Shown piece by piece: positions 10,010-62,069 of a DNA stretch of 64,000 bases. The stretch spans positions 1 to 64,000 of IMG/VR virus record IMGVR_UViG_3300042453_005424; one strand, 5' to 3'. The position numbers and the translations under genes are program-made. Position 1 is the first letter of the stretch, and each line of letters starts with the position of its first letter. The notes beneath the pieces are model-generated. The model saw nothing but the letters and a program-made list of their open reading frames with translations. It was not told the DNA's origin and searched no databases. Origin of the DNA: a virus.

Positions 10010-10429
10010 TTAGCCGGGTTTTTCTAAGTTTTTCTTAAATTCTTTAAAAAATCCTGCCGCATATCCTACAGCACCCATAACTCTTGCACCTTTTTGAGAC
10101 AAATCATCTCTATAAAAGTGCATTCTACCTTTGTGGCGCTGCACCCAGCATCTGTTGAAAGAATATAATACACCAATTTCTAACTTTAAAGCGCTTATAC
10201 CTTTTCGAGACTTTACCTCTTTTTCTTTGTAAGCTGTTTTATACTCAGTATTTAATTGCTTTCGATCAGTAAATTCTTTTAAATCTTTTAAAATAAGCTC
10301 TTTGTCATAAGGCATAGAATCGACCATCCAGCGGCGACCCTGCTGGTCATTTTGAAGGCGGTCTTGCGGAATATGTTCCTCTACCCACACTTTTAACTTG
10401 TCGAAAAGCTCTTCTAAAGTTTTTATCAT
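10010..10429 (-). CDS. Hypothetical protein between sigma factor and gp25
   Basis: A 139-residue charged protein rich in Lys, Glu and Asp with a helical start (I-K-T-L-E-E-L-F-D-K-L-K-V-W-V-E-E-H-I) and a C-terminal aromatic part containing H-K-G-R-M-H-F-Y-R-D-D. Its start codon overlaps the stop of the sigma-like gene by 4 bp (ATGA), so the two are coupled. I do not recognise the family. A role in baseplate assembly or as a partner of the sigma-like protein are both possible on position alone. Confidence 0.6.
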   Translation of the reverse strand: MIKTLEELFDKLKVWVEEHIPQDRLQNDQQGRRWMVDSMPYDKELILKDLKEFTDRKQLNTEYKTAYKEKEVKSRKGISALKLEIGVLYSFNRCWVQRHKGRMHFYRDDLSQKGARVMGAVGYAAGFFKEFKKNLEKPG

Positions 10430-27443: not shown

Positions 27444-28400
27444 TTAGACGAAGTCGATTCTGACCGCGCCCTTAACGTTACCGATAGCGAGCGAAAGGTT
27501 CATGTATTGGAAGTACTCCAAGAAGTATGCTTCGTTTTTCATGAACACAGTGAGCGGCTGTAAGCGATAATATTTACCAAAGAACTCTTCCGAAGAAAAG
27601 AGATAAATAGTTCCGTCAGGAACCAAGTCAGACTTGATTGTGTAGATGGGTTTCACGCCTAAGAGAGTCTTAGAAGGAAGGCCATTCACAAACATGTCTT
27701 GAGCAAGATCACCACCAACTTCAGAGCGACTCATCTTAACGAAGTCGTCTGCAGTAACAGTATTCATGAGCATAACACCCTTGGATTCTCCACCATCAGG
27801 CTGCGAAGGTCCAAAAGGAACGCGGAGGCGTTTGATCACTTTGAAGGCTTCTGCGACATTTTCACGAGTAATTCCGCCAGAAATGCTGCGGTATTGGGGA
27901 AGACCCATGCCGTTCAACGGGTTGACGGCGTCTCTCGTTCCGAGCACGCTATTAACACGCTCGATGAATCTAGAATCGATCTCAGCAGCAATATCCTTGG
28001 TGCTGATTTCGAGCATGATCGCACGAATGTCATAGTCGTAGCTACGAAGATGATCGATGTCCTTGTTGAACTTCGGGGATGTGATCCGTGTGAAGTAAGA
28101 AGGATAACGCGATCCGCTGAACTGATAAGCGTCCGGAACTACTCCGAGAGGAATAGTAACAGCAGGAGCTGTATCAGGCTCACGATCATTCCACTTAACC
28201 AAGAACTCGGGGTTTTCTGCCTTGTCGAGTTCGTCATTACTGATGTCGATAGGCGTCAGAATCTTTTCTGTGAAGCTCTCTTCACGAAGTTTATTACGAG
28301 TAAAAGATTGCGCTGAAACAGCGGCCTTTTTCTCTTCGCCGGCTCGAATCATTTCAACGAACGTGTCGTTGAATACTTTTTGATTTGCGATTTTTTCCAT
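27444..28400 (-). CDS. Major capsid protein
   Basis: A 318-residue protein in the expected place (after protease and decoration protein, before neck and sheath). It has an N-terminal helix and charged arm, a long central helix region (D-I-A-A-E-I-D-S-R-F-I-E-R-V-N), a Gly-rich part, then beta strands with T-L-L-G-V-K-P-I-Y-T-I-K and L-Q-P-L-T-V-F-M-K-N-E-A-Y, consistent with an HK97-type fold. Supporting signs of very high expression are the AGGAGA ribosome-binding site, a dedicated upstream promoter, a strong terminator and codon use shifted towards GC-ending codons compared with neighbours. The assignment is by context and pattern. Confidence 0.75.
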   Translation of the reverse strand: MEKIANQKVFNDTFVEMIRAGEEKKAAVSAQSFTRNKLREESFTEKILTPIDISNDELDKAENPEFLVKWNDREPDTAPAVTIPLGVVPDAYQFSGSRYPSYFTRITSPKFNKDIDHLRSYDYDIRAIMLEISTKDIAAEIDSRFIERVNSVLGTRDAVNPLNGMGLPQYRSISGGITRENVAEAFKVIKRLRVPFGPSQPDGGESKGVMLMNTVTADDFVKMSRSEVGGDLAQDMFVNGLPSKTLLGVKPIYTIKSDLVPDGTIYLFSSEEFFGKYYRLQPLTVFMKNEAYFLEYFQYMNLSLAIGNVKGAVRIDFV

Positions 28401-32256: not shown

Positions 32257-33693
32257 TTAAAAATTCTGAATTATAGCGTTCAAAAGCAAGTCATCATCTA
32301 ATTTATTTTGGTCCTCAAGGTATCTCAAAGCTGCCAATTTATAAGCTGTATATTGGTCAGCTAATTCACGAACTGCGGCTTCTTTCGATATCTCCGAGTT
32401 TTCTTTTTTACCTGTTAATTTATTCTGAGGTTTGCCTACAATCGTAATTCGCAAAATTCTTTGGTGTGCAGGAGCTCCAAAAAGAGAATGCCCGTCAAAC
32501 AAACCATTCACCAATTTTTTAATCTCTTTTGGCATTATATCTGAAAAAGAGGGCTCATATTTTTCATTGTGTAAAATATCCTCATTCAAATCAGAAAAAG
32601 CAAAAGGAAGCCTAGTTTTTACTTTGCTGAATAAATCTTCGGTGTTTTTAATCTTTTTGGTTCCGAATAAATATTTTATAAAGTCTTCGAGAGAAAAAAT
32701 GACACCTTTGTCTGCTAGCGCTCTTAGTAATTTAGAAGGTTCGAATTTACGCAGCTCTTCAAGAGTATCCTCAGAAATATTGTCGCTACTTTTAATTTTA
32801 GCTGCTTCATCTCGAATAAATTTATCTCGGCTGTTTTTAACCCCGCCTTTTATAACTGTCTCAACACGCTTTTCTATCTCTGCCAGCTTGGCTACCAAAT
32901 TTCTTTTCTCACTGGCATATTTTGACACATAAAGAGTATTGTCTTCCTCAGGAACAACAAACCCTGGGTATAGATTAAAATAGTCCGCAGCTTTTTTAAT
33001 ATAAGTTCCGTCAGAAGCAACTTTTTTAAGAGACATACCTATCCTATCAGCAGGTCTGCCGACTATAGACAATTCGAACCATCTAGGATTTATATTATCC
33101 ATACTGCACATTTCGCCGCGTTTGTTGATTTCGCCTAATTTAGATGGAATATGCTCGCAACGAGATCTGTCGTCTTTAGCTTCGTGGTCGCACCAAGTAC
33201 ATTTGTCATAAGCCACTTTAGCCGCCATCGAAACATTGATTTGTTTACCTTCTGACAACTTTTGAATTTCTTCAGCACATTTATCATTATCCATTCCGAT
33301 AATTAATTCAATACGGCGCATATTTTTATTATATGCGGCAGCTTTAATATTTCCGTATTTCGGGTCTTCAGGTTTATTTTTATGGTGCCTGTTTAAAGCA
33401 CGCCCGTCGTACTTACCTTCTTTATTTTTTTTGCCTGAATATAAGAATGTTTTATAATTGTTTACACATTCGGCTTCTTTAAAAATATCGCCGTTTCTAT
33501 TAGCGCCAGTTCCTTCGTACGCACCAAGCGCAATAACTAATACATCAGTTTGTCCGGCTGTTTTCTCAGCACAAAGCTCATTGTGCGCAGCTCCTGTCTT
33601 AGCCAATGTATTTTTATTAGCCAGTATTTGTACAGGTTCTACATCCCAATTCCAATCTTCAGTAGAACTAAATTTAATTAACCCCGAGTACAT
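32257..33693 (-). CDS. Prohead (capsid maturation) protease
   Basis: A 478-residue protein. Residues about 52-75 have V-L-V-I-A-L-G-A-Y-E-G-T-G-A-N-R-N-G-D, then N-R-H-H-K-N-K (H103/H104), then K-A-A-A-Y-N-K-N-M-R-R-I-E-L-I-I, then I-N-V-S-M-A-A-K-V (S155). This His plus Ser layout with about 50 residues spacing matches herpesvirus-assemblin/S78-type prohead proteases. An insert with C165, C168, H170, C179, H181 could bind zinc. The C-terminal half is helical and may be a scaffold-like domain. It lies upstream of the capsid block, as usual. It carries several K-x-A motifs itself, consistent with self-processing. Confidence 0.72.
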   Translation of the reverse strand: MYSGLIKFSSTEDWNWDVEPVQILANKNTLAKTGAAHNELCAEKTAGQTDVLVIALGAYEGTGANRNGDIFKEAECVNNYKTFLYSGKKNKEGKYDGRALNRHHKNKPEDPKYGNIKAAAYNKNMRRIELIIGMDNDKCAEEIQKLSEGKQINVSMAAKVAYDKCTWCDHEAKDDRSRCEHIPSKLGEINKRGEMCSMDNINPRWFELSIVGRPADRIGMSLKKVASDGTYIKKAADYFNLYPGFVVPEEDNTLYVSKYASEKRNLVAKLAEIEKRVETVIKGGVKNSRDKFIRDEAAKIKSSDNISEDTLEELRKFEPSKLLRALADKGVIFSLEDFIKYLFGTKKIKNTEDLFSKVKTRLPFAFSDLNEDILHNEKYEPSFSDIMPKEIKKLVNGLFDGHSLFGAPAHQRILRITIVGKPQNKLTGKKENSEISKEAAVRELADQYTAYKLAALRYLEDQNKLDDDLLLNAIIQNF

Positions 33694-40203: not shown

Positions 40204-42393
40204 TTACATATCAAAATTATCTGCTTTTGACATGTTTATGGATAACTCCGGAGATTTCCGTTTTAAGAAAATTACCAGCTCCCCTAAATTTTTGAAAACG
40301 CTGGTAACTAATTCCACTAATTCAGGTAAATCGCCTCTGCCATACATATCTTTAAATTTATCTGTTTCCCAGTGGAGTAAAAATAAAATTCTACCAAGCC
40401 TATCCATAGCTTCAATGATGGATGGAAGGTACTCAGAAACTTTATCCCCTACTGAAACATATTTCGCTAAAGCTCCGATTGTATGCGCGTCAAATATTTC
40501 TTTTTGGTTGTTCTGCGCTAATTGAATCGCTTGTTGAACAACTCTCGGGTCTACCCCTTCTACGTCTGGCATAACACCTAACCCCTTACGAGTAGGATCT
40601 TGCGTATAGCTAATATCTGAGGAAAGCATGTTCTCCATACCTACCCCAGTAGTTGTGGCCTGTCCAAATTCGTTGGTATAGGGTGATTCCTCCAACGGCT
40701 GGGGGTACATATCTCCGGTGTAAGCTTGTTTTATATGCCCTTTTTTTGATATCCCTGGGACAAGAGAGTCTATTATTTTTTCAGACTCTTCAAAAGGTAA
40801 CCCAAACTCCATAGTCATGGCAATTTTTGCGCTAACAGGGTCATCATACTTTTTCTTAGCTCCGTTTATATCTATAAAATATTCGCTGCCGTTTGTGCGC
40901 ACAGACATAGGCAAAATATTTTTTTCAGTCAACAAATTATTTAAAGCACGTATCGATCCAGGCTCATGTCTGGTGTCTTCGTCGATCTTATCACCTCCCG
41001 CCTCTGCGGACACAGTGCTTAATTTTCCAGAACTAGGCTCAATCTTAAGTAATTTATACCCGGACGGGACATAAATTAAATTATCCTTATATTCCAGTTT
41101 ATCGCCAGGTTTTTTTGTAATCACCAAAAATACTTCTTTCGCCTGTTTGGGGTGGTTATAAAAATTACCTCTAGGAAGATCATGCACACTTCCGGGGCGG
41201 TCAGTTTTTCCACGATATTCTATACAATCGCAACCATGGTCATAAGCTCTATAAGGCTCTGCAGAAATTCTTCGAATTCCAGAAGCATCTTTGAAATTAG
41301 CTGTTATGTAAAACGGCTGGGTAGCATTTAAATTTTCATTTATTAATACATAAATATTTGAACCTGGACGAGCCTCGGCTGCGTCGACCATCATTTTATG
41401 CACATCAGAATAATCGGCTATCTTAAAATGGTCTTTAATAAATACTTTGGTGCTATCCTTTATATACGCGCTTCCTTTTCCGGACTCTAAATCGATAACA
41501 ATAGCGTCATCTGTAGAAAAATTTTGCTGAAGCTGCTTCGGACGAACTAAAACTAAACCATACCGCAAATTACCTGTAGCTGTAATATATGAATAAAATC
41601 CAGAATCTACAGGATTTGAAAAAGTCTTTTCATAATCTATAGCTCCAAACTTTGATTTTTCTCCAGCCTCTCGGTTGTCCAAAATGACAAACCCTTGGGT
41701 CAACAAAGTTTCTTTTTGCTGAGCAGTTAAATTCTTTACTTGCTCCTTATTCTCTTTTTTTACAAGTTTCAATTTGGCTGGAGCATTGTCTCCTGAGCGA
41801 TATTTATCTCCATCGTCTAAACTAATAGCTTCGGCGACCTTCTCCATAGGATAAAATCTCATAACAGCCTCACAAAAGTCTGCGTCTTTCTCCAATAAGT
41901 TTGCGAATGCCTTTTTGGTTGGGTTGCCGGAATCTCTTACATAATCGATAACTGAAGCGACTGTATATTTTCCGGTACGTGGAGGAACAACAAGCTGTCT
42001 GTAATCTCCCTGAGCCACATCGCGCATTATGTCAGATCTGCTTTCGTCTGAGTTTTCTCCCAGTCCTAGCAATTCCTCTTTTATGAACATTTCAGCAAAG
42101 TCTTCATTCAACGGATAAAATTGCTCGTTGTTTTTACTGTAGAGTAAATCAAGAGTTTTAACCTTACCATTAATAAAAAACACCGGAACAAATAAAATTT
42201 GCCCATTAGCCGAGCGAAAACCAAAAACCCCTAGAGCTTTCGTATTGTCTTCATTCTTTTTTACAATCTCAAATCCCACCAAATACGGGATTAAATTTTT
42301 GAGGGTATCTTGAAGACGTTGGTAAGCTAGTTGGAAAAAAGCCCCTTCGAGTTGGTCGTCTGCTGCTGCTTTTATTAAATTTGTTTTAGGCAT
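40204..42393 (-). CDS. Large virion protein next to RNAP genes
   Basis: A 729-residue protein. The start has L-I-K-A-A-A-D-D-Q-L-E-G. The middle is mixed alpha/beta with R-A-Y-D-H-G-C-D-C-I-E-Y. The C-terminal 90 residues are helical with D-R-L-G-R-I-L-F-L-L-H-W-E-T and L-G-E-L-V-I-F-L-K-R-K. I recall similar C-termini in large phages but cannot name the family. It begins a transcription unit behind its own promoter and follows the beta' C-terminal gene, so an RNAP-associated or internal virion role is possible. Not a portal as far as I can tell. Confidence 0.5.
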   Translation of the reverse strand: MPKTNLIKAAADDQLEGAFFQLAYQRLQDTLKNLIPYLVGFEIVKKNEDNTKALGVFGFRSANGQILFVPVFFINGKVKTLDLLYSKNNEQFYPLNEDFAEMFIKEELLGLGENSDESRSDIMRDVAQGDYRQLVVPPRTGKYTVASVIDYVRDSGNPTKKAFANLLEKDADFCEAVMRFYPMEKVAEAISLDDGDKYRSGDNAPAKLKLVKKENKEQVKNLTAQQKETLLTQGFVILDNREAGEKSKFGAIDYEKTFSNPVDSGFYSYITATGNLRYGLVLVRPKQLQQNFSTDDAIVIDLESGKGSAYIKDSTKVFIKDHFKIADYSDVHKMMVDAAEARPGSNIYVLINENLNATQPFYITANFKDASGIRRISAEPYRAYDHGCDCIEYRGKTDRPGSVHDLPRGNFYNHPKQAKEVFLVITKKPGDKLEYKDNLIYVPSGYKLLKIEPSSGKLSTVSAEAGGDKIDEDTRHEPGSIRALNNLLTEKNILPMSVRTNGSEYFIDINGAKKKYDDPVSAKIAMTMEFGLPFEESEKIIDSLVPGISKKGHIKQAYTGDMYPQPLEESPYTNEFGQATTTGVGMENMLSSDISYTQDPTRKGLGVMPDVEGVDPRVVQQAIQLAQNNQKEIFDAHTIGALAKYVSVGDKVSEYLPSIIEAMDRLGRILFLLHWETDKFKDMYGRGDLPELVELVTSVFKNLGELVIFLKRKSPELSINMSKADNFDM

Positions 42394-42466: not shown

Positions 42467-44326
42467 TTAGTAAATGTCTTCCTTTTCCCCAAATCCTACA
42501 CCATACGCTAACCCAGGTATAGGACTTGGTCCTTTAACATCTGAAACGGATCCTTTATTTACCATGTTTACAAATCTTTTCGCCAAATTGGTACTGTTCA
42601 GAACATGCATCCAATCTTCATGATGCTCAGGTATATCCAATAAACGCACCATCACAGGCTCAAAGTTGGGAGGATTGTCGTTCACCAACACAGCTTCAAT
42701 CCCATTATCTTTTAAATCTTTGATTACCCTGGAAGTTATTTTTGTACCTAGTGTGTAATGCAGCTCGGGTTTTTCCAGATATTTTCCGTAAGCAAAGTCT
42801 AACCTGAGATCTTTGGAATTTTCTCTAGGTTTATAATTTTTTTCAACGGCTGAATAGGAAACGATCTGGTCTGGTAGGTAATCGCCTAAACCTTCGGGAT
42901 CTGTTATTTGCACATGGTCGATAGCGGCTTTGGCTATAAGTTCAAAATTTCTACGATTGACACTTAAATTACTATCGTCGAAAGCTTTTTTCATCGCTTC
43001 CATATAATACTTTCTACCGTCTCCTATTCCTCTGTATTTAACAACTTCTCGAGGGTCTATTAAACCTGAGCTTAAAGCGTCTCCCTGCTCTACACTATCC
43101 CCGACAGAAACTGTAGGCTCTTGGTCTAACCCGATATAATGTTCGGTATTGTTGACTTTTATAAAATATCCTCCTGCCGCAGCAGGCTCGATTTTCGTAA
43201 TAAAGCCATCTTCTTGAGCTAACGGCGCTTTACCTAAAAATTGTTTTGGGACATTCGCCAATTGATTTATTAATTTAAACCCTTGCTGACTAGTTCCTAG
43301 TGTAGTAGCTGCACCTCCAGAATGTCTGGCTTTCATAGCGCTTTCAGTTAGTGGTTCTGCTACAGCTGTTCCTGCGACCAACCCAACATAACTATCTAAG
43401 GCGGCCATTCCTTTTTCGCGCACCCCAACACACATTTGGCAAAGTCCGCCCGCATGATGTTTTTTGTTAGCTTGACACGTCATCGGAGAACGTATGGTTA
43501 TACTTTTAATGTTTTTATTCGCGAGGTTATTTAACATTTTCAATGTAACCTCATTATTTCTATTATACTCGTCAACAGGTTTTGCTAAAAAAGAGCCCAC
43601 CGATTCTTTATCTTTCACACTAACGGATATTCCATTCATGGTGTCGCAATCATGCTCCACAACTTGAAGAGGCATGAGAGCGCGTGCGAATTGCTTTGAA
43701 CCATACCCGCCTTGGGCTACGGAAATTTTTTTCAAAACTTCTCCAGATCTTGTACCGAATGATGTTGTCAGATATTCAGGTAGAGTTAATCCCTCTGCAT
43801 AAGAACTTTTTATCGGTAAATCCATTTTAGGTTTACCGTCAGCATCCACAACAACACCTTGTGTAGCTATTGTTCCTCGATACTGCGCGGGAGATCCTCT
43901 TGAACCGGCAATAATAATTTTAGCTAAAGATTTATTCGAACTAAGCCCTTTTGACAAAATATCTTTTTCGATATTAGTCATCATGTCATTGTATTTATCG
44001 AATATCTTTTTATTTTTTACAGATTCTGAGTCATCACTTTTTTCTATTTTTGCTTTGAATGCGTCGAAATCCTCCCAAAGCTTATCCTTATCTATAGGAG
44101 ATACTAAATCTTTTAATGTGAGTGATGTTCCTTCTCGTGTGGCAATCTCGAAACCTAACCTTGTTAAATCCGATGTAATTTTACTGTATTCGGTCGGAGC
44201 TTTAGCAGCTAGTGCGCTAAAAAATTTAGAAAGCCCTTTTTTGTCTAAAACTTCATCGTCTATCAAATCATGAAACTGCGAAGGAGTAAAAAACTTAAGC
44301 AAAACTTTACCTACTGTGGTTACCAT
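42467..44326 (-). CDS. RNA polymerase beta' subunit, C-terminal half
   Basis: A 619-residue protein colinear with the C-terminal half of bacterial beta'. Residues 1-70 match the region with T-T-V-G-K-V-L-L and L-G-F-E-I-A-T-R-E-G-T-S. Residues about 140-150 are A-G-S-R-G-S-P-A-Q-Y-R. Residues about 178-222 correspond to E-G-L-T-x-x-E-Y and the bridge helix. Four Cys of the second zinc site are present (C227, C284, C296, C299). The trigger loop (residues about 326-340, M-K-A-R-H-S-G-G-A-A) keeps Met331 and His335, so it looks catalytically able. The break from the N-terminal half is close to the rpoC1/rpoC2 break of cyanobacteria. Two small genes and one Gln-rich gene separate it from the fused beta/beta' gene. 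Confidence 0.88.
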   Translation of the reverse strand: MVTTVGKVLLKFFTPSQFHDLIDDEVLDKKGLSKFFSALAAKAPTEYSKITSDLTRLGFEIATREGTSLTLKDLVSPIDKDKLWEDFDAFKAKIEKSDDSESVKNKKIFDKYNDMMTNIEKDILSKGLSSNKSLAKIIIAGSRGSPAQYRGTIATQGVVVDADGKPKMDLPIKSSYAEGLTLPEYLTTSFGTRSGEVLKKISVAQGGYGSKQFARALMPLQVVEHDCDTMNGISVSVKDKESVGSFLAKPVDEYNRNNEVTLKMLNNLANKNIKSITIRSPMTCQANKKHHAGGLCQMCVGVREKGMAALDSYVGLVAGTAVAEPLTESAMKARHSGGAATTLGTSQQGFKLINQLANVPKQFLGKAPLAQEDGFITKIEPAAAGGYFIKVNNTEHYIGLDQEPTVSVGDSVEQGDALSSGLIDPREVVKYRGIGDGRKYYMEAMKKAFDDSNLSVNRRNFELIAKAAIDHVQITDPEGLGDYLPDQIVSYSAVEKNYKPRENSKDLRLDFAYGKYLEKPELHYTLGTKITSRVIKDLKDNGIEAVLVNDNPPNFEPVMVRLLDIPEHHEDWMHVLNSTNLAKRFVNMVNKGSVSDVKGPSPIPGLAYGVGFGEKEDIY

Positions 44327-44778: not shown

Positions 44779-45648
44779 TTAACCTACCGCATTCATAGCC
44801 TGCGGGTATATTCCTCCTGCGGACCCCATCAAGGCTTCTTGTTGCTGTGAGTTTTGCTGCTGACTCTGCTGTTTTTCAAGTTCAGCCTTTTGTTTAACAG
44901 CTTCCATTTTTTGGTTATGTTGGTCTGCCAGTTGTTTAACTTTCAGTAATGAAGCTGTGGCAGACCCTTTCCCTATCAAATCCAGTAATTCTCGTACCGA
45001 TAAATTAACGCGTACATTATCCAGCTCATTCTTTGCTTCTACAGCAGAAGCTTCGGCAGAAGAAGCGTCATCCATGGCTGCTGGGGTATTTTGGCTGGTT
45101 CCGAAAAGCCCTGCAGCGTCTTCGTAGGATGCTTGCGCTTCCATAGGCGCTGCTTGCCCGACAGCTCCGCCATTCATCTGAGGAGCCAATTGTTGTAAAA
45201 TAGCCGCCAGCTGTTGTTCTCTTTGCTCAGGAGGTAACGCTTGAAGTTGAGTCAATAGGGGAGTGATTTGCTGCTGCAGCTCAGGGGGAATTTGCTGTAA
45301 AGCTGTTGTGACCTCGTCCCATAAACTTTGTTGAGGAGCAGCTTGTTGAGGAGCAGCTTGTTGAGGAGCAGCTTGTTGAGGAGCAGCTTGTTGAGGAGCA
45401 GCTTGTTGAGGAGCAGCTTGTTGAGGAGCAGCTTGTTGAGGAGCAGCTTGTTGAGGAGCAGCTTGTTGCTGTTCTTGTAGCTGCTGAGCAACTTGAGGGT
45501 TAGGTATGAAAGCAACTTTTTCGCTGCTGTCTGCGGTAGCTGTGTCTGTAGATGAAAATAGCGCCGTTAATGTTGTCTTGGCGGAGTTTTCTGCGGCTTC
45601 TTTAACTATTAAGTTGTTATATTGGTTTATCAAATCTACGATTTTCAT
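44779..45648 (-). CDS. Gln/Ala/Pro-repeat protein in RNAP cluster
   Basis: A 289-residue protein. Residues about 60-110 are nine perfect tandem copies of Q-Q-A-A-P, encoded by a 15-bp tandem DNA repeat. They are followed by L-x-Q-L-Q-A-L-P-P-E-Q-R-E-Q-Q and, near the end, a Lys/Gln-rich coiled coil (A-E-L-E-K-Q-Q-S-Q-Q-Q). The N-terminus contains L-I-V-K-E-A-A, fitting the K-x-A pattern. It is translated together with its neighbours (4 bp overlap with the upstream 66-residue gene). Perhaps a flexible linker or scaffold protein. Confidence 0.6.
   Translation of the reverse strand: MKIVDLINQYNNLIVKEAAENSAKTTLTALFSSTDTATADSSEKVAFIPNPQVAQQLQEQQQAAPQQAAPQQAAPQQAAPQQAAPQQAAPQQAAPQQAAPQQAAPQQSLWDEVTTALQQIPPELQQQITPLLTQLQALPPEQREQQLAAILQQLAPQMNGGAVGQAAPMEAQASYEDAAGLFGTSQNTPAAMDDASSAEASAVEAKNELDNVRVNLSVRELLDLIGKGSATASLLKVKQLADQHNQKMEAVKQKAELEKQQSQQQNSQQQEALMGSAGGIYPQAMNAVG
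45328..45462 (-). repeat. Tandem 15-bp repeat (nine copies) coding QQAAP
   Basis: On the plus strand the unit TTGTTGAGGAGCAGC is repeated nine times without interruption (135 bp), within the 289-residue gene. Each unit encodes Q-Q-A-A-P on the minus strand. The near-perfect DNA identity indicates recent expansion by slippage, so copy number probably varies. Confidence 0.9.
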
Positions 45649-45885: not shown

Positions 45886-48876
45886 TCAAACTTCAACGCG
45901 GTCGCCAACATCTAATTTACCGGCTAAAAAATCTCTTACAACTTCTTGCGCTGAGCTATATTTAATAGGTTTATTTTTTTTATCTTCAAAACTTGCAGCG
46001 AATAAACCTGTAGCGGCCTCGTTCGAAGGAGTGAATATCGGGCTGAATGTTCTGTGGTAGATTAAATTTTTCTCAGGCAATAGCTTTTCTTTGATTTCAT
46101 CTTTAGCTTCTTCTGTCGCCGGAACTTGCACATTCAACTGATCTCCATCACAATCAGCGCCGAAACCTTTAAACACCAAAGGATTTAATTTAACTGAAAA
46201 ATCTTTAGGATCAATATTTGTCTTTAGATAGAAACCTTGAAAATTATATTTAGATAATTGCGGATCTCGAGTAACAATTCCTGGGCGGTCCTCCATCTCT
46301 AGCTGGAGTGCATTAAGCGCCAACGGATGTTTTGTATCTAAGTATTCTCTAGCTTTAGTTGCAGGTATTCCTTGTTTAACCAATCTTCGAATTATAAAAG
46401 GAGCATATATACTCCAAGCAACATTTTGAGGAATGCTCGCTTGATTCAGATCTAACTTCGAATCAGGCAATAACACAGCTCTTCCTACCAAATCAATTGG
46501 TTTGTTAACAACTTTTGCCTGAAACATGGATTCTTTGGCTGACCCGCCGTGAACGCCTAACGCAGTAGCTAGTAAACCTTTATACCCTTTCTCTTTACTT
46601 TTTTGAGATATTGGGTCACCTAAACCATATATAGCTTGAGCACCTTCGTAAATTTTCTGTTTTGCCGCTCTAATGTGTTCAGGAGAAATATCCTCTATTT
46701 TTTCAGCATCTTTCAAAGATTTATTGACAAGCATCAAATCTTTATATAGCTCATTAATATCTGCCGAAAGAACTTGATCTCCCTGTATAATAATAGGGCG
46801 ATACTGTGCAGGAATAATTGGGATTTTAGATAACAACATATCACTAGGCTTGAGCCCGTGTGATTTAAGCATAGTTAAAAAGCTTAAACTTTTGACTGCC
46901 TCGTCTCTTCCGGATTTACGTTTGGTAGCAATAAATTGTTTAAGCTCATCAATTTTATTCTCTACATCTATAGCTTCTAATTTCTTTTCAAGCTCACCAC
47001 TAGCGATAGCCGCTGTATAATTCGCCTTGGTCATTTTTAACATTTTACGTAAATGTTCTTCAGCCATAGGATTAGGTATTTTATGACTCAACTCAATGTG
47101 ATTGAAATTATCTCCGTACAACCCAACATATGTAGGGTCAAAAAGGCCGTGCTCCTCATGCTGCAATTCATCTTTTTTTAACTTGTACGTGAGAGGATTT
47201 TTAATTTCCCCTGATGATAATGAAACAATATCTTTATCGGTTTGAGGAAAAATATGAAATTTTGAACCTTCCTGCTGAACATTAATTCCTGCTCCACGAA
47301 GATGCCCAAGAAACTTATTAAATATAAATGGTACTTTTGGAGGGGGTGGAGGATACCCTAATTTGAGGGCAGTCCAATAATCATCGTTTTTAGTAGAGCG
47401 CACCGTAGCGATATCCCTAAGCACTGCTTTCGCGTCATTCGATAAAGCAACCGTCGTAGCCAAGTTACCTATTCGTTTAGCTTTTTCTGTTGTTCCGGCC
47501 TTTGAAGGCTGCATATTCACATCATATGTAGTTGCAGCAGATCTAGCAGAAATTTTGTCCTCAGCTATATGGTGTAACCTGTTAAAATAAAGAGGTCCTG
47601 TTAGCACTTCGACCTGTTTGCCTGAAATTGGATCATAAAGCTTTTCAGTGTCTTTAATTCCTGCTTTGTCCAACGCGTCTATTACTTTTTGCACCGCAGA
47701 ACCTTCAGTAAATCCGGTCATATTGAGAGCTTTGCCTTTTTTCTGTGCTAATTTACCTAGCCCGATTGTATTCACCAACCCAGGAGCAACGCGAGAAGTG
47801 ATGCTCATGGAATTAAGGATAACATCCACAGGTTTGCCGTCTTCGTCTTGTGGCATTTGCGTATCAGCAGCGATGTGTACCACTCCTTTAGCTCCGAACG
47901 GCATATTCAATTTATCCCCAAACCCCATAGGGCGCTTTGTTTTAACAGTTACAGTTATAAGTTTACCTGTGTTAACTGAGTCAACCACTGTTCCTTCGTG
48001 CTCATATTCCCATGTTGTAGAAATATCATTAAAAGCATTTCTAATCACTTTAGATAACTTTCCAAGTTGTATATCCAATGATTTAAGTGTTTTAGGCTGG
48101 AAAGCCAGGATCACGGGATCTCCAGGTCGCAAAACTGTTCCTTTTTTTACTACTCCCTGAGAATCTATGGTATCTAATTGATCGTTATAGAACTTGTTAG
48201 GAAACAATGAAATATGCTGATTTTTATCTGTGGAAACTCCTCTAGCCACCTCTAAACGAATAGGGATGAGTTGCTCTCCTTCGAGTTTTTTTGCTGCAGA
48301 TTCAGATATAACCAAAGCATCCTCAAAATTAAGAGAGCGATAAGGCATAACCGCGGTTTTCAAATTCATACCTAGGGCTAAGTTGCCTTTATCATCTGAA
48401 TAATTCGAGGTAGCCAATAATTGCCCTTTTTCTACCTTGTCTCCTATTGAAACCGTAGGTTTGTGGTCTATATAACTTTCTCTTCCGACGATATAATTTG
48501 AATATCTGTCGTGCGTATGCTCTTTACCTGAAGAGTCTTTGATAACAATGGTATCATCATTAATTTTTGCAACTTTACCTGCAACTGACGATCTGATGCT
48601 TACTAAATTTCCAAAAAGCTGGTTAAAACTCTGTTTTCCTCCTTTAGGAGCTGACTGAACTAACGGAGCTTCTCGATTAGTTAACGTCATAGCTTGCAAC
48701 GAAGACTTATCCCCGATCAAAACGCGAGCCCCAGAAACAGAGCTGATTCCTGGAATTAAATTGGTTACAGGACTAAAAAACTCGGAAGGATCTGGTATAG
48801 TATATTTGGCTTTTTCAGATGAGGAAACTTTTTTTAATTTCCCTGCCACCAGCATATATTTATAATTTTTACCCAT
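45886..48876 (-). CDS. RNA polymerase beta(C-terminal)-beta'(N-terminal) fusion
   Basis: A 996-residue protein. Residues about 35-510 follow the C-terminal half of bacterial beta: L-I-P-G-I-S-S-V-S-G-A-R, N-F-E-D-A-L-V-I-S-E (183-192), G-D-K-L-N-M-P-F-G-A-K-G-V (320-332, with K322 and K330 at the positions of the two active-site lysines) and L-H-H-I-A-E-D-K-I-S-A-R-S (434-446). From about residue 510 the sequence follows the N-terminal part of beta': P-I-I-P-A-Q-Y-R-P (686-694), then G-A-D-C-D-G-D-Q (906-913), which keeps all three catalytic Asp (D908, D910, D912) of N-A-D-F-D-G-D. The N-terminal half of beta is absent here; a fragment lies at 57,047-57,712. A promoter sits 8 bp upstream, so the mRNA would be leaderless. 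Confidence 0.9.
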   Translation of the reverse strand: MGKNYKYMLVAGKLKKVSSSEKAKYTIPDPSEFFSPVTNLIPGISSVSGARVLIGDKSSLQAMTLTNREAPLVQSAPKGGKQSFNQLFGNLVSIRSSVAGKVAKINDDTIVIKDSSGKEHTHDRYSNYIVGRESYIDHKPTVSIGDKVEKGQLLATSNYSDDKGNLALGMNLKTAVMPYRSLNFEDALVISESAAKKLEGEQLIPIRLEVARGVSTDKNQHISLFPNKFYNDQLDTIDSQGVVKKGTVLRPGDPVILAFQPKTLKSLDIQLGKLSKVIRNAFNDISTTWEYEHEGTVVDSVNTGKLITVTVKTKRPMGFGDKLNMPFGAKGVVHIAADTQMPQDEDGKPVDVILNSMSITSRVAPGLVNTIGLGKLAQKKGKALNMTGFTEGSAVQKVIDALDKAGIKDTEKLYDPISGKQVEVLTGPLYFNRLHHIAEDKISARSAATTYDVNMQPSKAGTTEKAKRIGNLATTVALSNDAKAVLRDIATVRSTKNDDYWTALKLGYPPPPPKVPFIFNKFLGHLRGAGINVQQEGSKFHIFPQTDKDIVSLSSGEIKNPLTYKLKKDELQHEEHGLFDPTYVGLYGDNFNHIELSHKIPNPMAEEHLRKMLKMTKANYTAAIASGELEKKLEAIDVENKIDELKQFIATKRKSGRDEAVKSLSFLTMLKSHGLKPSDMLLSKIPIIPAQYRPIIIQGDQVLSADINELYKDLMLVNKSLKDAEKIEDISPEHIRAAKQKIYEGAQAIYGLGDPISQKSKEKGYKGLLATALGVHGGSAKESMFQAKVVNKPIDLVGRAVLLPDSKLDLNQASIPQNVAWSIYAPFIIRRLVKQGIPATKAREYLDTKHPLALNALQLEMEDRPGIVTRDPQLSKYNFQGFYLKTNIDPKDFSVKLNPLVFKGFGADCDGDQLNVQVPATEEAKDEIKEKLLPEKNLIYHRTFSPIFTPSNEAATGLFAASFEDKKNKPIKYSSAQEVVRDFLAGKLDVGDRVEV

Positions 48877-48884
48877 TTAAACTA

Positions 48885-48913
48885 ATATTACCTTACCAAA
48901 TATGAAAGATCAA
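48885..48913 (-). promoter_or_regulatory. Sigma-70-like promoter for RNAP operon
   Basis: Minus strand: TTGATC (48913-48908), 17 bp, TAATAT (48890-48885). The -10 edge is only 8 bp before the ATG of the fused RNAP gene, so a leaderless mRNA is predicted. Confidence 0.55.
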
Positions 48914-49308: not shown

Positions 49309-49515
49309 GCCACAAACAAGAAAACTGGTATACAGTCTATGGTAGATCTGCTTTCCCTCATATCAACAGATGCTTTCTCCCCCTTGACTCCACGATAATT
49401 GATGAGTAGAGTTAGCTCCGATATGTCTAAGAGCATATAGGCACCTGACAGCAATGTACTCAATCGAGCCTGAAAAGAGTTGAGTAGTGTGCTGCACAAT
49501 AAACATACATACAAA
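49309..49515. promoter_or_regulatory. Divergent intergenic region at the strand switch
   Basis: About 200 bp separate the leftward and rightward gene blocks. On the plus strand TTGACT (49384-49389), 17 bp and TAGAGT (49407-49412) form a plausible promoter for the rightward operon. On the minus strand TTGATA (49366-49361), 16 bp and TACCAT (49344-49339) is a weaker candidate for the leftward gene. No clear hairpin terminator or origin-like iteron was seen. Confidence 0.4.
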
Positions 49516-50688
49516 ATGTCATTGGCCATCGAATCAGCAAAACTAACGAGAATAGAAGAAATATTAGTCACCCGAGAAACTTCTCCAGTTGAAAATCCAC
49601 CTCCGAAACTGACTCAATATAAAAACTCGGTATGGGAAGGAGAGAGCGCGCCTACCGAATACACAATCGCTAAGTTTATCGAAACAGAGCAATCCAGAAC
49701 TCATTCAGACGAATTAGTCTCTTCCAAGGCTTCAACAGTATCTAGCAAGCCAGTTAAAGGCATACTCGATATAAACTGGGCGAATCCGAGGGATTGGGTT
49801 AGAAACTGGAAAGTTATTCCTCTCGACGAAAGACTGCTTATAAAAACATTGTTTACCTCACCACTAGCCAAAAACGGAAATCGCTACGGGCTAAAGCGGT
49901 TTAATCTCGGAAGTCATCTAATGCAGTGCATAGGAGTCGATATGACCAACATTATCGGAAACGGTATTTGTGCTGTGAAATCGAATCTAATAAACGAGCT
50001 GGGATACTATAGCGATTACTGCGCGAACAACCGGGCCATGGATCCTAAAACCTGCCGAAGGGCTTTTGCTAAATTCATGAAAGACAACAATCCTCAAAAA
50101 CTGTTCGAATCTGGGTATGTAGCCTTTCACGCTGTTGTAAACTCCGGAGAAACCTTGAAACACTTGGATAACGATATCGAAAGCTATAAGAAGAAATTAT
50201 GGAGCTTTTACGGAAAAAACTGTAAAGTTTTCCGAAAGCTGAAAAAGAAAAAACTGGTTTCCTATATGATTTATGTTCACGAAATGTCTACTCGAAATCT
50301 TTTGAGCAAAGAGTTGAACCCGCATACGCACGTTATGTTCTTTTTCAAAGACCCTGGGCTCGGAGGTTCAGAGCTTGAATGGATGAGCCGTGAGATTGTC
50401 CGAGAGTTCAACAATATCTCTGAAGAAGGAATTATGAGTCCTAGCACCGAAGTAGTCGGGGACTCGGGCGAAAGAGCTGTTCGAGTAGCAAAAAAGTGGA
50501 ACTCGAACACGAAGAAATCCGTAGGCTACTATTTCAGGGTATGTTCCACAGTAGAAAACTACCTGAAAGAAATAACCCCGGAAAACATACGAGAATTAAA
50601 TATAGCCACTCGCGAAAATTGGTGGGTAGTTCGTCAACTTATGAGTGGAAAGTCCCAGCGGAGATTCGGTTATACAAGAATACGTTAG
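49516..50688 (+). CDS. HUH-endonuclease/Rep-like protein
   Basis: About 390 residues from the ATG at 49516 (a TTG at 49480 is an alternative start; neither has a clear ribosome-binding site). The central part has a basic stretch (R-K-L-K-K-K-K-L-V-S-Y-M-I-Y-V-H-E-M-S) and then N-P-H-T-H-V-M-F-F-F, with the H-x-H plus hydrophobic run that forms the metal site of HUH nucleases. About 65 residues later is K-K-S-V-G-Y-Y-F-R-V, where a catalytic Tyr could lie (Y338/Y339). This is the arrangement of rolling-circle Rep proteins. The function is not proven, and such a gene leading a virion-type operon is unusual. Codon use is GC-richer than the leftward block. Confidence 0.45.
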   Translation: MSLAIESAKLTRIEEILVTRETSPVENPPPKLTQYKNSVWEGESAPTEYTIAKFIETEQSRTHSDELVSSKASTVSSKPVKGILDINWANPRDWVRNWKVIPLDERLLIKTLFTSPLAKNGNRYGLKRFNLGSHLMQCIGVDMTNIIGNGICAVKSNLINELGYYSDYCANNRAMDPKTCRRAFAKFMKDNNPQKLFESGYVAFHAVVNSGETLKHLDNDIESYKKKLWSFYGKNCKVFRKLKKKKLVSYMIYVHEMSTRNLLSKELNPHTHVMFFFKDPGLGGSELEWMSREIVREFNNISEEGIMSPSTEVVGDSGERAVRVAKKWNSNTKKSVGYYFRVCSTVENYLKEITPENIRELNIATRENWWVVRQLMSGKSQRRFGYTRIR

Positions 50689-56841: not shown

Positions 56842-57069
56842 ATGCCGGCAGAAAATAAGCAAATATATATCCCAGAGCTGTTCGTCAAAGGAACATACAT
56901 AGAAGAAGTGGGTACAGCACAAGATAAAGTGGTTTATCCAGGAGCGGAATTCAACATAGCGTTAACTATGAAAGATTTTGAAAATTCGGAAGATTACCAC
57001 ACAGTATGGATAGCGATAACAAAAGCGATTAAATCAAAACTAAACAATGGAAACCTCACCTGCCCCTAA
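56842..57069 (+). CDS. Small protein overlapping RNAP beta fragment
   Basis: A 75-residue protein, beta-like at the start (Q-I-Y-I-P-E-L-F-V-K-G-T-Y-I) and helical at the end (V-W-I-A-I-T-K-A-I-K-S). Its last 23 bp overlap the start of the beta N-terminal gene, so the two are probably translated together. No family recognised. A role with the RNAP fragment is only suggested by coupling. Confidence 0.5.
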   Translation: MPAENKQIYIPELFVKGTYIEEVGTAQDKVVYPGAEFNIALTMKDFENSEDYHTVWIAITKAIKSKLNNGNLTCP

Positions 57070-57712
57070 AAATACGCGAGCACTTTTTGACCCAGAAAAT
57101 TTGCGTAATATGTTGTTTGAAACTGCTGTAAGCAGTTTTGATAAAAAGTTAAATGCTATCGAAACGCCAGACTTTAAATTAGTCGCTAAAAATTTAACAG
57201 TTGAGGTCCCGCAGATAACTATATCAGCGCAAAAAAAAGCTATTTTAGAAAAAAAGGATCTAACCGTACCACTCAAAGGAACCGTAGATCTTATACATAA
57301 GCCGACAGGAAAAGTGGTAGAAACCAAGAAAACAACGATTGCGCAAATTCCGTATGTAACAAATCATAATACTGTAATATATAATGGTTCAGAGTATGAG
57401 CCTGTTAACCAACAACGGCTTCTCCCAGGTATATACTCCAGAATAAGGCAAGACGGTATAGCTGAAGCCCACATCAATCCTGAAAGTAGAACAGGTATGG
57501 CTGGCAGGATATTGTTTTTGCCGGATAAACAACTATTCGTTTTTATGGTGAGAAATTCTCAAATAAAGCTCTACGGAATTTTACACGACCTAGGAATACC
57601 TGACGCTATGATAAAAAAAGCTTGGGGAGAAAAAATTTACTCAGCTAATAGAATATTTTATACAGGAGATGAAATTGACAAGCTCTACGGTGTGCTTATC
57701 GGAGATGAATGA
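57047..57712 (+). CDS. RNA polymerase beta subunit, N-terminal fragment
   Basis: A 221-residue protein resembling the N-terminal part (protrusion) of bacterial beta. Residues about 97-131 read I-A-Q-I-P-Y-V-T-N-H-N-T-V-I-Y-N-G and then E-P-V-N-Q-Q-R-L-L-P-G-I-Y-S, matching the conserved I-G-x-I-P-x-M-T-x-x-G-T-F-I-x-N-G-x-E-R-V-x-x-x-Q-x-x-R-S-P-G. Residues about 137-200 follow the P-E-S-x-x-G / L-x-x-x-L region. It ends before the lobe and fork regions. It is 8 kb away from the fused beta-beta' gene and on the opposite strand, so the polymerase is assembled from separate chains. The middle of beta is not found in this window. Confidence 0.75.
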   Translation: METSPAPKNTRALFDPENLRNMLFETAVSSFDKKLNAIETPDFKLVAKNLTVEVPQITISAQKKAILEKKDLTVPLKGTVDLIHKPTGKVVETKKTTIAQIPYVTNHNTVIYNGSEYEPVNQQRLLPGIYSRIRQDGIAEAHINPESRTGMAGRILFLPDKQLFVFMVRNSQIKLYGILHDLGIPDAMIKKAWGEKIYSANRIFYTGDEIDKLYGVLIGDE

Positions 57713-58936: not shown

Positions 58937-59275
58937 ATGATTATAGATTTTGCCATCGTAGCTTTGGTATTAAGCTATTTTTTAGTAGTCTGGCTAAAAA
59001 CGGACGCGTTTGCTGAATACATGATATTATTTAGATTAACAAAATTATTTCATATGGAAGAATATAAGCAATTACGCGCAGACGGCTACGATGGAAACTA
59101 TATCGATTTTTTAGTAGAATATTATAAAGATAAATTTTTTGTCAGGCTTTTGTCATGCCCTGTGTGTTTGAGTTTTTGGTTAGGAATGGCAGCTATAGCT
59201 ATAAATGGGCTAGGAGCAATAATTGTTCCTCCTTTGGTGTTGTTTTCATATCTGCTATTTAATAAACTAATGTAA
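58937..59275 (+). CDS. Membrane protein with CPVC-x-SFW motif
   Basis: A 112-residue protein with an N-terminal transmembrane helix (I-V-A-L-V-L-S-Y-F-L-V-V-W-L), a hydrophilic middle and a C-terminal membrane region preceded by S-C-P-V-C-L-S-F-W-L-G. That motif is the hallmark of small phage membrane proteins I associate with the DUF1360-like group; function unknown. It ends 1 bp into the start of the cysteine-repeat gene (TAATG), so the two are coupled. Confidence 0.65.
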   Translation: MIIDFAIVALVLSYFLVVWLKTDAFAEYMILFRLTKLFHMEEYKQLRADGYDGNYIDFLVEYYKDKFFVRLLSCPVCLSFWLGMAAIAINGLGAIIVPPLVLFSYLLFNKLM

Positions 59276-61290
59276 TGTCATTAGAAGTTAAACCCGATAC
59301 GGTTAAATTTGGCGACGATCCCGCCAGACCTAAAAAATATTACGCGACTTATATCCCTCCCGTAGAGTCGGGAGGCCCTGCTTGCGAACTACCGAATCCT
59401 TTAACTTATACTAGCGAGCTGCAGAGCGCGCTCCCGATGAATCAAACTTGTACGTTTGAATTCCCGGAAGCCATAGCTATCCCTCCGATATATAATCCTC
59501 CTCCACCTAAAATCATAGCGTGTGAAGCATTCACCGCGACTACATCTCTTATAGCCAGTGGAGCAGCCAAATCCACCATATTAAATCTAATTGCTGCAGG
59601 ACCTAAAGAATGTGGAATAGAATTGACGGGTATCATAGATGTCCAGGCTTGCGAAGAATTTACTGCTAATGTGGATATAGACTTCGGATCTTCGCATCGT
59701 AAAGCCGGAAGTTCCGCAGCCATTACATCTACAAGCTCTCCACAATGCGGACTGAACCTCACAGGCTATTTTGATGTATTGGTTTGTGAAGAATTGACCG
59801 TTAACACAGATGTCCAGTTTAGTGGTGCTGCTGATAAAGGAAGCTCACTTCTATTAGGTAAAACTAGTGAAGCTCCTCTTTGTGGTCTAGACTTAACCGG
59901 GTTAATTAATGTGCAAGCTTGCGAAACATTCGAAGCTAGTGCGGATATAACCTTCGGAGGTGCGAACGAAAAAGGCGGCAGTTCAATAAGTTTAGTCTCT
60001 CGAAATCAGCCTGAATGCGGGCTAGAATTGACCGGCGTTATAAACGCTTTAGCTTGTGAAGAATTGACCGTTAACACAGATGTCCAGTTTGGTGGTGCTG
60101 CAGAAAAAGGAGGGAGCTCAATTGTATTAAATACAACTAGTGAAGCTCCTCTTTGTGGTCTAAACTTAACCGGCAATATAAATGTTTTGGCTTGCGAAAC
60201 ATTCGAGGCCGACGGGACAATATCTATAACTGGTGCAGGAGTTTCCGGAGGGCCTATAACTGTTACATCTCGAACTGTACCTGCCTGCGGGTTAACTTTA
60301 AGCGGTGATGTATCTATCGATGTATGTGAAACATTCGACGCCAGTGGAAGCTTGGATGTGACCGGCATGTCCGGAGCGTCAGGACAACTGAGCGTGGTTT
60401 CTCGAGGGAAGCCTGCCTGTGGGGTAGATATTAACGGGCAAATTGTATTACCACAGGTTTGTGAAAATTTTCAACTGAGTGTGTCTGGAGGTTCTATATC
60501 TATAAGTATAAGTAGCCCTTGCGGCGGGAACAGTGGTACAATTAATTTAAATCCTGCGGTTTCAGTTATGGGTCCGCCGACTTGCGGTGCGACGATAGCG
60601 CTCGGGAGTGGCTCGATAAGCTTAGATGTAGGTAATGTTCAATGTGAACAAAATAATTATCAGTCTAGTAGCTGGGGCGGGGGCAGCAGTAGCTGGGGCG
60701 GGTGCAGCAGTAGCTGGGGTTGCTGCGGATGTGTTACCAGCACTGGGCAAGGTTGTTGTGCAGGCTGTACATATAGCGCTTGTTGCGGCAGCTACTACGA
60801 CCCGTCGTCAAATCCCGATGGTTGCTGTACATATAGCCAGTGCTGCTGGCTTAGCGAGTCTAGCGGCGGAGGAAGTAGTAAAAATAGCGCTATTGTTCCA
60901 GCGTCATGGCAAAAAACAGGCTACACAGCACTTTCTGTTGTTGAAGCCCCGGAGGTAAGATTTGAAGATGTGTTTGACGTTACTCTATACAGCGAAGAAG
61001 AACTTGTTCCTATAGACCCTAGATTTGTGGAAGTTTGTGAGCCTGGCACATTGCGTGTTTGCGGCGTAGTTGCAGAAGAACCTGTCTTAATTGGAGCCAA
61101 AGTAAAAGAAGATTTGATTCGTATAAAAGTTAAACAAATCGATGAAGAAAAATGGCCTCTGCAGGCTACACTTAAATTAACCGGAGTTAGAAGAGGGTTC
61201 GACTGGTATCGTTTTCCTGCAAGAACAAAAGCTCAATACGTTGCGAATGAAGCATTCATCAATTCTGCTTATCCTCCATTTAGAGAATAA
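59275..61290 (+). CDS. Two-cysteine tandem-repeat protein with CC-rich tail
   Basis: A 671-residue protein. Residues about 82-435 are seven to eight repeats of about 45 residues, each starting A/V-C-E-x-F/L-x and containing C-G-L/I-x-L-T/S-G about 33 residues later, so two Cys per repeat. They look like beta-solenoid or beta-sandwich units, and a 270-bp higher-order duplication is visible. Residues about 460-540 are Ser/Gly/Trp/Cys-rich with many adjacent Cys (G-C-C-G-C, C-C-T-Y-S-Q-C-C-W). The last 110 residues are a folded domain (G-F-D-W-Y-R-F-P-A-R-T-K-A-Q-Y). No signal peptide. Possibly a disulfide-rich fibre or a metal-binding protein. Confidence 0.7.
   Translation: MSLEVKPDTVKFGDDPARPKKYYATYIPPVESGGPACELPNPLTYTSELQSALPMNQTCTFEFPEAIAIPPIYNPPPPKIIACEAFTATTSLIASGAAKSTILNLIAAGPKECGIELTGIIDVQACEEFTANVDIDFGSSHRKAGSSAAITSTSSPQCGLNLTGYFDVLVCEELTVNTDVQFSGAADKGSSLLLGKTSEAPLCGLDLTGLINVQACETFEASADITFGGANEKGGSSISLVSRNQPECGLELTGVINALACEELTVNTDVQFGGAAEKGGSSIVLNTTSEAPLCGLNLTGNINVLACETFEADGTISITGAGVSGGPITVTSRTVPACGLTLSGDVSIDVCETFDASGSLDVTGMSGASGQLSVVSRGKPACGVDINGQIVLPQVCENFQLSVSGGSISISISSPCGGNSGTINLNPAVSVMGPPTCGATIALGSGSISLDVGNVQCEQNNYQSSSWGGGSSSWGGCSSSWGCCGCVTSTGQGCCAGCTYSACCGSYYDPSSNPDGCCTYSQCCWLSESSGGGSSKNSAIVPASWQKTGYTALSVVEAPEVRFEDVFDVTLYSEEELVPIDPRFVEVCEPGTLRVCGVVAEEPVLIGAKVKEDLIRIKVKQIDEEKWPLQATLKLTGVRRGFDWYRFPARTKAQYVANEAFINSAYPPFRE
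59518..60590 (+). repeat. Protein-level tandem repeats with 270-bp higher-order period
   Basis: Approximately 45-residue units repeat through this region. The segment beginning at 59785 and the one beginning at 60055 are nearly identical over about 50 bp, exactly 270 bp apart, showing that pairs of units were duplicated. Later units are more diverged. Confidence 0.75.
60821..60865 (+). repeat. 45-bp perfect repeat, copy 1
   Basis: Identical to 61366-61410 in the next gene; encodes C-C-T-Y-S-Q-C-C-W-L-S-E-S-S. Part of the CC-rich segment. Confidence 0.9.
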
Positions 61291-61295
61291 ATAAT

Positions 61296-62069
61296 ATGAT
61301 CACCGGTTATGCTACATATGATGGAGGAAGCTACGGATCAAATAAAGAGAGCGGTTGTTGCTCCAGTTGCTGTACATATAGCCAGTGCTGCTGGCTTAGC
61401 GAGTCTAGCGCCGTTCCGGATGGGCCAGATGGGCCAGACTATGATTATGGTTACGGCTGCTGTACATATAGCACCTGCTGCGGCTGTGGTGGTACGGCCA
61501 CCACCGCCACCAAAAAAACAAGCCTCAACTATACTAGCTCCAGCTCTGGCACATTCATTATAGGTGCTCGTGAAAATGAGCGATATCTTCACATGGGGCA
61601 TTTTCCTATAACCGCTATCAAAACTATCAAACCTTCACAAGTTTTAACCAATGGTGAAGAAACATATAATTCAAACGTCGATAATTATGATGTGTCTATT
61701 GTGGGGTTGGTCCACGGCATAAATTTAGAGGAAAATGCAATATCTGTAAGTTTTATAGAGAATGGTGAATTTAAAACTTATAACTTAGCCACAGTAGAAA
61801 TTGTGGAACCTATATCCACCTCGATAAACGGAGCAAAAAACTATGGAAGACGCACAGGGAATTCGGACAGCTCTGTTTTTGCTTTTTCTAACCCTTTCTC
61901 GTATGAAATGTTGACCACCATTAAACTAACTGTACGGACGTCAGGATTAGGTTTAGGCGCTACCGATAGAGAAATCACAGAATCTGATGGAGCAGTCTTA
62001 ACCGCGACTAATAACGCGGAAGTTTATAAATTGATTGCTTATGGAAATGAAGTGTGTAGTTTTAAATAA
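61296..62069 (+). CDS. Second CC-rich protein
   Basis: A 257-residue protein. Residues about 15-65 are Cys-rich (S-G-C-C-S-S-C-C-T-Y-S-Q-C-C-W, and later C-C-T-Y-S-T-C-C-G-C-G-G) with a Asp/Gly/Pro spacer, closely related to the tail of the preceding protein, including a 45-bp perfect DNA repeat. The following 190 residues are beta-rich with no recognised motif. The start lies 5 bp after the previous stop. Shared CC modules suggest the two proteins interact or bind metal together. Confidence 0.65.
   Translation: MITGYATYDGGSYGSNKESGCCSSCCTYSQCCWLSESSAVPDGPDGPDYDYGYGCCTYSTCCGCGGTATTATKKTSLNYTSSSSGTFIIGARENERYLHMGHFPITAIKTIKPSQVLTNGEETYNSNVDNYDVSIVGLVHGINLEENAISVSFIENGEFKTYNLATVEIVEPISTSINGAKNYGRRTGNSDSSVFAFSNPFSYEMLTTIKLTVRTSGLGLGATDREITESDGAVLTATNNAEVYKLIAYGNEVCSFK
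61366..61410 (+). repeat. 45-bp perfect repeat, copy 2
   Basis: Identical to 60821-60865, 545 bp upstream, in the same reading frame sense. A shorter related string (GCTGTACATATAGC) occurs again at about 61,460 and 60,764. Confidence 0.9.

Follow-up and report, generated by a model that had tools for sequence, protein, structure and literature searches.

A predicted four-chain phage RNA polymerase that appears to descend from a single β-β' chain by fission

RNA polymerase (RNAP) β and β' are among the most conserved cellular proteins, and some bacteria (Helicobacter, Wolbachia) carry rpoB and rpoC fused at the natural β/β' boundary. A viral stretch of 64,000 nucleotides (nt), positions 1 to 64,000 of IMG/VR record IMGVR_UViG_3300042453_005424 (hereafter the window), holds on its minus strand a gene at 45,886-48,876 that an initial annotation described as the C-terminal half of β joined to the N-terminal half of β', with the outer ends of both subunits encoded elsewhere. 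How could such a gene arise, and what enzyme does it belong to? We consider it highly likely that it encodes the central chain of a four-chain, α-less, σ-directed phage RNAP core, derived by fission of a single β-β' chain and most likely packaged in the virion.

The gene is a single open reading frame (ORF) of 996 amino acids (aa). Pfam profiles found β and then β' domains in this one chain, not one subunit alone: RNA_pol_Rpb2_6 at residues 133-459 (E 1.4e-48), followed by RNA_pol_Rpb1_1 at 658-726 (E 2.9e-11) and Rpb1_2 at 863-930 (E 3.9e-13). Alignment with E. coli RpoB and RpoC showed that residues 1-537 (47,266-48,876, minus strand) correspond to E. coli β ~622-1342, and that the step from residue 537 to 538 is the natural β/β' boundary; residues 538-996 (45,886-47,265, minus strand), aligned with E. 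coli and Staphylococcus RpoC, correspond to E. coli β' 1-~550. The β' N-terminal zinc finger is absent from the fusion and from the other aligned phage chains. Both signatures of a two-barrel, cellular-type RNAP are intact: the β-barrel catalytic lysines K322 and K330 (GDK...KGV; 47,887-47,913, minus strand) do not vary in alignments of 7 and of 24 relatives, and the Mg-binding triad of the β' barrel (D908-C-D910-G-D912; 46,141-46,155, minus strand) belongs to a D-x-D-G-D motif invariant across aligned relatives. An AlphaFold model of the fusion (predicted local distance difference test, pLDDT, 82.9; predicted template-modelling score, pTM, 0.70) matched RNAP β in the PDB over its β part (E 1.9e-37); the alignments for structure prediction were built from IMG/VR loci only, leaving out two cultured relatives, Salmonella phage Arash and Vibrio phage D69. 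The annotated order of subunits and the retention of both active-site motifs thus held up. So did the integrity of the gene, since roughly a dozen further viral contigs carry it complete at 49-78% identity, which excludes a read-through or assembly error joining two genes.

The remaining polymerase pieces account for a full set of β and β' domains. The C-terminal part of β' (β'C) is a separate 619-aa gene at 42,467-44,326 (minus strand), as had been annotated; it matches Pfam Rpb1_5 (E 3.2e-15) and is a homologue of Arash Gp216. The N-terminal part of β (βN) is a 221-aa protein encoded at 57,047-57,712 on the plus strand, comprising the protrusion and the first part of the lobe by its homology to residues 36-222 of Arash Gp206 (E 5e-17). 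Pfam returned nothing for this protein; a structure predicted for it (pLDDT 84.9) gave a Foldseek match to the β N-terminal domains of solved RNAPs (E 1e-10). The initial annotation was right to place the β N-terminus in this ORF, but it is not all of the missing β: we rejected βN plus the fusion as a complete β, because the two fell ~230 aa short until a middle piece (βM) was recovered by searching the full 74,454-base parent record with profiles. This 230-aa gene lies at record position 64,252-64,944 (minus strand), just past the end of the window, and matches Pfam Rpb2_3 (E 1e-5). Concatenated, βN, βM and the fusion cover the 1,525-aa Arash Gp206 nearly without gap or overlap, and the four pieces together span the full Arash β-β'N chain plus β'C. 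The predicted core enzyme is therefore βN, βM, βC-β'N and β'C, with β in three parts and not two. In E. coli numbering, cut 1 falls in the lobe, around β 225-375 (a range taken from the E. coli alignment plus profile-match boundaries, in a region partly missing from this phage), cut 2 at ~β 621/622, and cut 3 between the end of the fusion near β' 550 and the start of β'C near β' 570.

This arrangement is shared by a clade. A first scan found the same fusion ORF of ~995-999 aa in 8 relatives at 68-78% identity, and wider scans brought the window clade to ~25 contigs besides the window. Among those 8 relatives, βM and βN are each separate ORFs in 7 and β'C in all 8, with one match per record for each. 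All four genes are under purifying selection, with nonsynonymous divergence (dN) of 0.10-0.37 and synonymous sites near saturation. In the window clade, βN and the fusion are on opposite strands; in locus L045, a more distant clade member (49% identity; L numbers denote surveyed loci), βN shares the strand of the fusion and βM is opposite, so the strand of each piece reflects later inversion.

To place these cuts we searched ORF sets with five profiles (βN, βM, βC, β'N, β'C). Each of two scans took in at most 80 loci, the best-scoring 80 of 196 and the best 80 of 104 confirmed candidates, a sample rather than a census. Four architectures emerged. Type I is a single β-β' chain of ~2,000-2,150 aa, and type II, found in Arash and D69, is a β-β'N chain of ~1,450-1,600 aa with a β'C of ~600 aa; most RNAPs of the phage lineage sharing the window's capsid protein are of these two types. 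Type III is the four-piece form of the window clade. In type IV, β carries only the first ~90 β' residues (a chain of ~1,110-1,150 aa) and the remaining β'N, with its catalytic barrel, has its own gene (~380 aa); many such RNAPs are among L143-L191 (e.g. L155, L172, L189), sometimes with unrelated genes between the β and β'-barrel genes. Of 15 genomes drawn from types I-IV, 14 encode a homologue of the window's capsid protein, so these phages belong to one lineage.

Trees of concatenated segments from ~108 dereplicated phage taxa, rooted on bacterial RpoB+RpoC, placed type I deepest and united types II, III and IV in one clade (Shimodaira-Hasegawa-like approximate likelihood ratio test, SH-aLRT, 99). 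Type III formed a single clade (SH-aLRT 100) beside the type II contigs L048, L065 and L070 (99-100). The tree requires four architecture changes, the minimum possible, and every one of the ~108 phage taxa has β joined to β', even where β is uncut. Because the window clade is nested within type II, full fusion came earlier and fission later, and because β and β' are each unsplit in the outgroup, the breaks in β' and in β are all derived, however the type I branches are ordered. Judged by these sequences, the polymerase started out as one uninterrupted β-β' chain and was fragmented afterwards. Four phage-named records used as outgroups (OR844998, OR846602, OR849902, CAKLQF020000005) carry ordinary bacterial rpoB/rpoC, probably as host contamination, and are misleading in phage databases. 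PHROG families 24349 and 25354, considered as β/β' of a close relative, were dropped; both match all 14 control genomes and resemble ordinary RpoB/RpoC.

We propose that the ancestor had one continuous β-β' chain, that β' would first have been severed after the catalytic barrel, and that β was later severed at two further places in the window clade, with the βN gene now within a gene block inverted relative to the fusion. The pieces would be expressed independently and reassemble non-covalently into an active enzyme, in which the uncut βC-β'N chain would hold both catalytic barrels on one polypeptide. The annotated chimera, βC then β'N in one chain, is accordingly real as an arrangement but makes more sense as the central segment of an ancestral β-β' fusion, since separated from both its ends, than as two joined half-subunits. 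What makes its topology unusual is a retained fusion at the natural β/β' boundary combined with cuts at three other places; the β' cut is less unusual, lying near the site after the double-psi β-barrel (DPBB) where φKZ-type and cyanobacterial RNAPs are both cut (PMC7598289).

Mobile elements are frequent in the polymerase genes of this lineage. An intein bearing a LAGLIDADG domain is present in the type I chains of L063 and L084, and other large inserts occur in phage RNAP chains of L049, L095, L106, L137 and L158; across single-chain phage RNAPs, inteins or other large inserts sit at several positions, some close to the catalytic DxDGD region. Group I introns were detected in the β gene of L135 (107.7 bits) and of the cultured Vibrio phage D181 (100.7 bits), with an endonuclease gene behind. 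D181 (L208) has two such introns close together (L208:6015-6295 and L208:2218-2425), one within the RNAP β gene, where it splits the annotated gene into two 'hypothetical proteins', and one upstream adjoining another endonuclease gene. We considered whether L135 had arrived at the same chimera by a separate fission and rejected this, as its gene is continuous apart from a group I intron that carries an HNH gene; the same applies to D181. In L045 the fusion is directly flanked on either side by LAGLIDADG genes, which thus stand precisely at two of the cut sites, and an ORF directly upstream of βM carries DUF723, a domain associated with homing endonucleases. Inteins do not mark the cut sites exactly (model positions 775 and 1364-1385 versus cuts at 221, 451 and 1447), and the other inserts, not shown to be inteins, sit elsewhere in the model than 775 and 1364-1385. 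An Rfam scan of the window returned nothing over threshold and permissive scans no intron match at the piece ends, which leaves trans-splicing introns at the window's pieces without support. Homing elements in relatives nevertheless suggest, circumstantially, how the cuts may have arisen. This fits a proposal for φKZ-type RNAPs, reported in PMC7598289, that their splits followed intron mobility, deletion and rearrangement.

The window also encodes a likely promoter-specificity subunit, a 213-aa σ70-family protein at 10,426-11,067 (minus strand; Pfam Sigma70_r3, E 1.3e-8). Its Arash homologue, a gene early in that genome at 12.0-12.3 kilobases, bears the annotation RNA polymerase sigma factor and, judged by its position, should encode virion protein Gp10. 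Each of the 10 records checked, several of which may be incomplete, held one RNAP and one σ-r3 protein over the cut-off, and no α subunit was found in any of them. The phage σ-like protein would then direct the core to promoters. A σ70-like promoter, TTGATC-N17-TAATAT (48,885-48,913, minus strand), stands 8 nt before the fusion ATG, and the pattern is present before the fusion in 6 of 13 clade members against 0.1 expected after shuffling; a σ70-like promoter also precedes βM in 12 of 13 members, in both cases 6-8 nt before the ATG. This result is suggestive only, because the pattern was picked after viewing and the sequences are related. Such promoters would give each piece a near-leaderless mRNA of its own. 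Shine-Dalgarno-like motifs are few in the window (4 of 24 genes) and -10-like boxes stand directly before some starts, so leaderless transcripts are possible.

Polymerase genes sit within the structural cluster, whose order is as in Arash: β'C, a 729-aa homologue of Arash Gp218 (40,204-42,393, minus strand; blastp to the gp218 locus), a probable head maturation protease (32,257-33,693, minus strand; phrog_18299, E 5.9e-9; homologue of the Arash gp222 locus) and the major capsid protein, our lineage marker (27,444-28,400, minus strand; homologue of Arash Gp226). The Arash virion proteome lists Gp206 first by spectra (3,516), with 1,210 for Gp216 and 467 for σ Gp10, and Gp218 was also detected in the virion (PMC10585845). 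These spectra, together with the position of the RNAP genes, led us to infer that the polymerase is probably packaged in the virion; it would be injected to start early transcription.

The same enzyme could instead stay out of the virion and be produced after infection to transcribe late genes, which we think unlikely. The σ70-like promoters before βM and the fusion fit ordinary expression during infection, and a place in the late structural cluster does not by itself prove packaging; yet the orthologous Arash chains and σ lead the virion spectral counts (PMC10585845), and with only one RNAP found per genome, no separate virion enzyme of this type was seen. Decay of a dead polymerase into remnants is hardly to be credited: fragmentation is a common route of gene decay, but all four genes are under strong purifying selection with intact catalytic residues, identical cut sites recur in at least 20 contigs, and no intact second copy was found in 10 records.

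Two further alternatives concern how the pieces relate to one another. β and β' might each have been split first, as in φKZ-type phages, with βC and β'N fused secondarily. φKZ-type RNAPs are indeed split, with β' cut after the DPBB as in the window (PMC7598289), but type I is unsplit and deepest among phage RNAPs, as is the bacterial outgroup unsplit, so splitting is derived; the junction, moreover, is fused in every phage taxon of the tree, even those without a β cut. This order of events is very improbable. Marginally less probable still is that trans-splicing introns, or split inteins, rejoin the pieces into a single chain after transcription or translation. Phages of this lineage do carry group I introns and inteins in their RNAP genes; the pieces, however, cover the Arash chain and bear no additional splicing domain at their termini, the Rfam and permissive scans described above found no intron there, βM and the fusion are often preceded by promoters of their own, and across relatives every piece has its own start codon and its own stop.

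Fission of a single chain into a packaged four-chain polymerase remains our preferred reading, and several points weigh against it. Packaging is carried over from Arash at ~32% identity, and the Arash authors note that abundant proteins may simply carry over (PMC10585845). The four-chain complex is a prediction. The branch to bacteria is long and the deep branch order of type I weakly supported. The role of mobile elements is circumstantial, because the introns and inteins of present-day relatives are not placed exactly where the window's pieces are cut.

The closest known systems are the Arash (Gp206 and Gp216, OQ632216) and Vibrio phage D69, D148 and D181 polymerases, which share the β-β' junction and the β'C cut of the window, have homologous σ and capsid proteins, and are 31-32% identical along the full 996-aa chain. 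Their β is continuous with β'N (~1,525 aa, interrupted by the group I intron in D181), whereas that of the window is cut twice more; the Arash record annotates Gp206 merely as 'subunit beta'. The virion and non-virion RNAPs of φKZ/AR9-type jumbo phages resemble the window in having split β and β', no α, and β' cut after the catalytic barrel (PMC7598289, PMC7824862). As described, these never have β and β' in one chain, have no known σ and number two per phage, whereas the window fuses βC with β'N and its lineage has a σ-like gene and one RNAP found per genome. Bacterial rpoB-rpoC fusions are single chains with β intact; the window keeps the same junction after three cuts and without the β' zinc finger, and a single full-length rpoB-rpoC-like chain is true of its type I relatives, not of the window itself. 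The single-chain RNAPs of crAss-like phages and YonO share with the window the presence of both catalytic barrels in one polypeptide, but those RNAPs are highly divergent, crAss RNAP having failed to match COG0085/COG0086 (PMC7481178), whereas the window lineage matches cellular β/β' profiles strongly.

Like the window, the mReC phages are uncultured tailed phages with cellular-like β and β'; they were described with both subunits, and a fusion is unmentioned in that paper (Weinheimer and Aylward 2020). Their motif is NADxDGD and their β and β' are each at least 800 aa, in contrast to the window's GADCDGD, β in three parts and β' in two. mReC capsid proteins match PF07068, as none of 15 genomes of the window lineage did, but the controls gave no match either. 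YerA41 and Cobetia phage Carin-5 also encode β/β' genes, but with β a separate gene in both; β'N and β'C of YerA41 are separate, as in the window.

Other genes lie near these pieces. A QQAAP-repeat protein is encoded between the fusion and β'C (44,779-45,648, minus strand), and L045 has a similar Q-rich protein at the same place. Two adjoining Cys-rich repetitive proteins of 671 and 257 aa are encoded at 59,275-62,069 (plus strand), and L207 has a similar Cys-rich gene near βN. A 402-aa ORF (49,480-50,688, plus strand) beside the strand switch has no Pfam or PHROG match and by eye is possibly replication initiator-like.

We found no description of fused, single-chain or serially cut β-β' phage RNAPs in the open-access literature; bioRxiv was outside this scope and an earlier description is possible. 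The window RNAP is thus a variant, not found described, of the phage-encoded two-barrel RNAP. Arash was published as an orphan phage with Gp206 termed 'subunit beta' and Gp216 'beta' subunit', a fusion going unmentioned in the available text (PMC10585845). More broadly, though with less confidence than for the window enzyme itself, we think it probable that an undescribed tailed-phage lineage has had its ~2,000-aa β-β' chain cut repeatedly at different places. The window clade would be the most fragmented form seen, with a σ-dependent virion polymerase made of four chains, none of them equivalent to a cellular subunit. The lineage amounts to a natural cutting experiment in which the β/β' junction stays fused while cuts fall elsewhere, mapping the joints that tolerate breakage. 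Severinov and co-workers reportedly found that E. coli β or β' tolerates splitting in certain regions, and two of the window's three cuts lie in or near these.

Split jumbo-phage RNAPs have been argued to be relics from before the last universal common ancestor (PMC7824862), the opposing view being intron mobility followed by rearrangement (as reported in PMC7598289). In the window lineage the order is readable, with fusion first and fission later, and the genes concerned also harbour introns, inteins and homing endonucleases. The cultured relatives Arash and Vibrio phages D69 and D181 make the question testable. If this reading is true, fragmentation of phage RNAPs can be late and secondary, not a relic of an ancient multi-piece enzyme.
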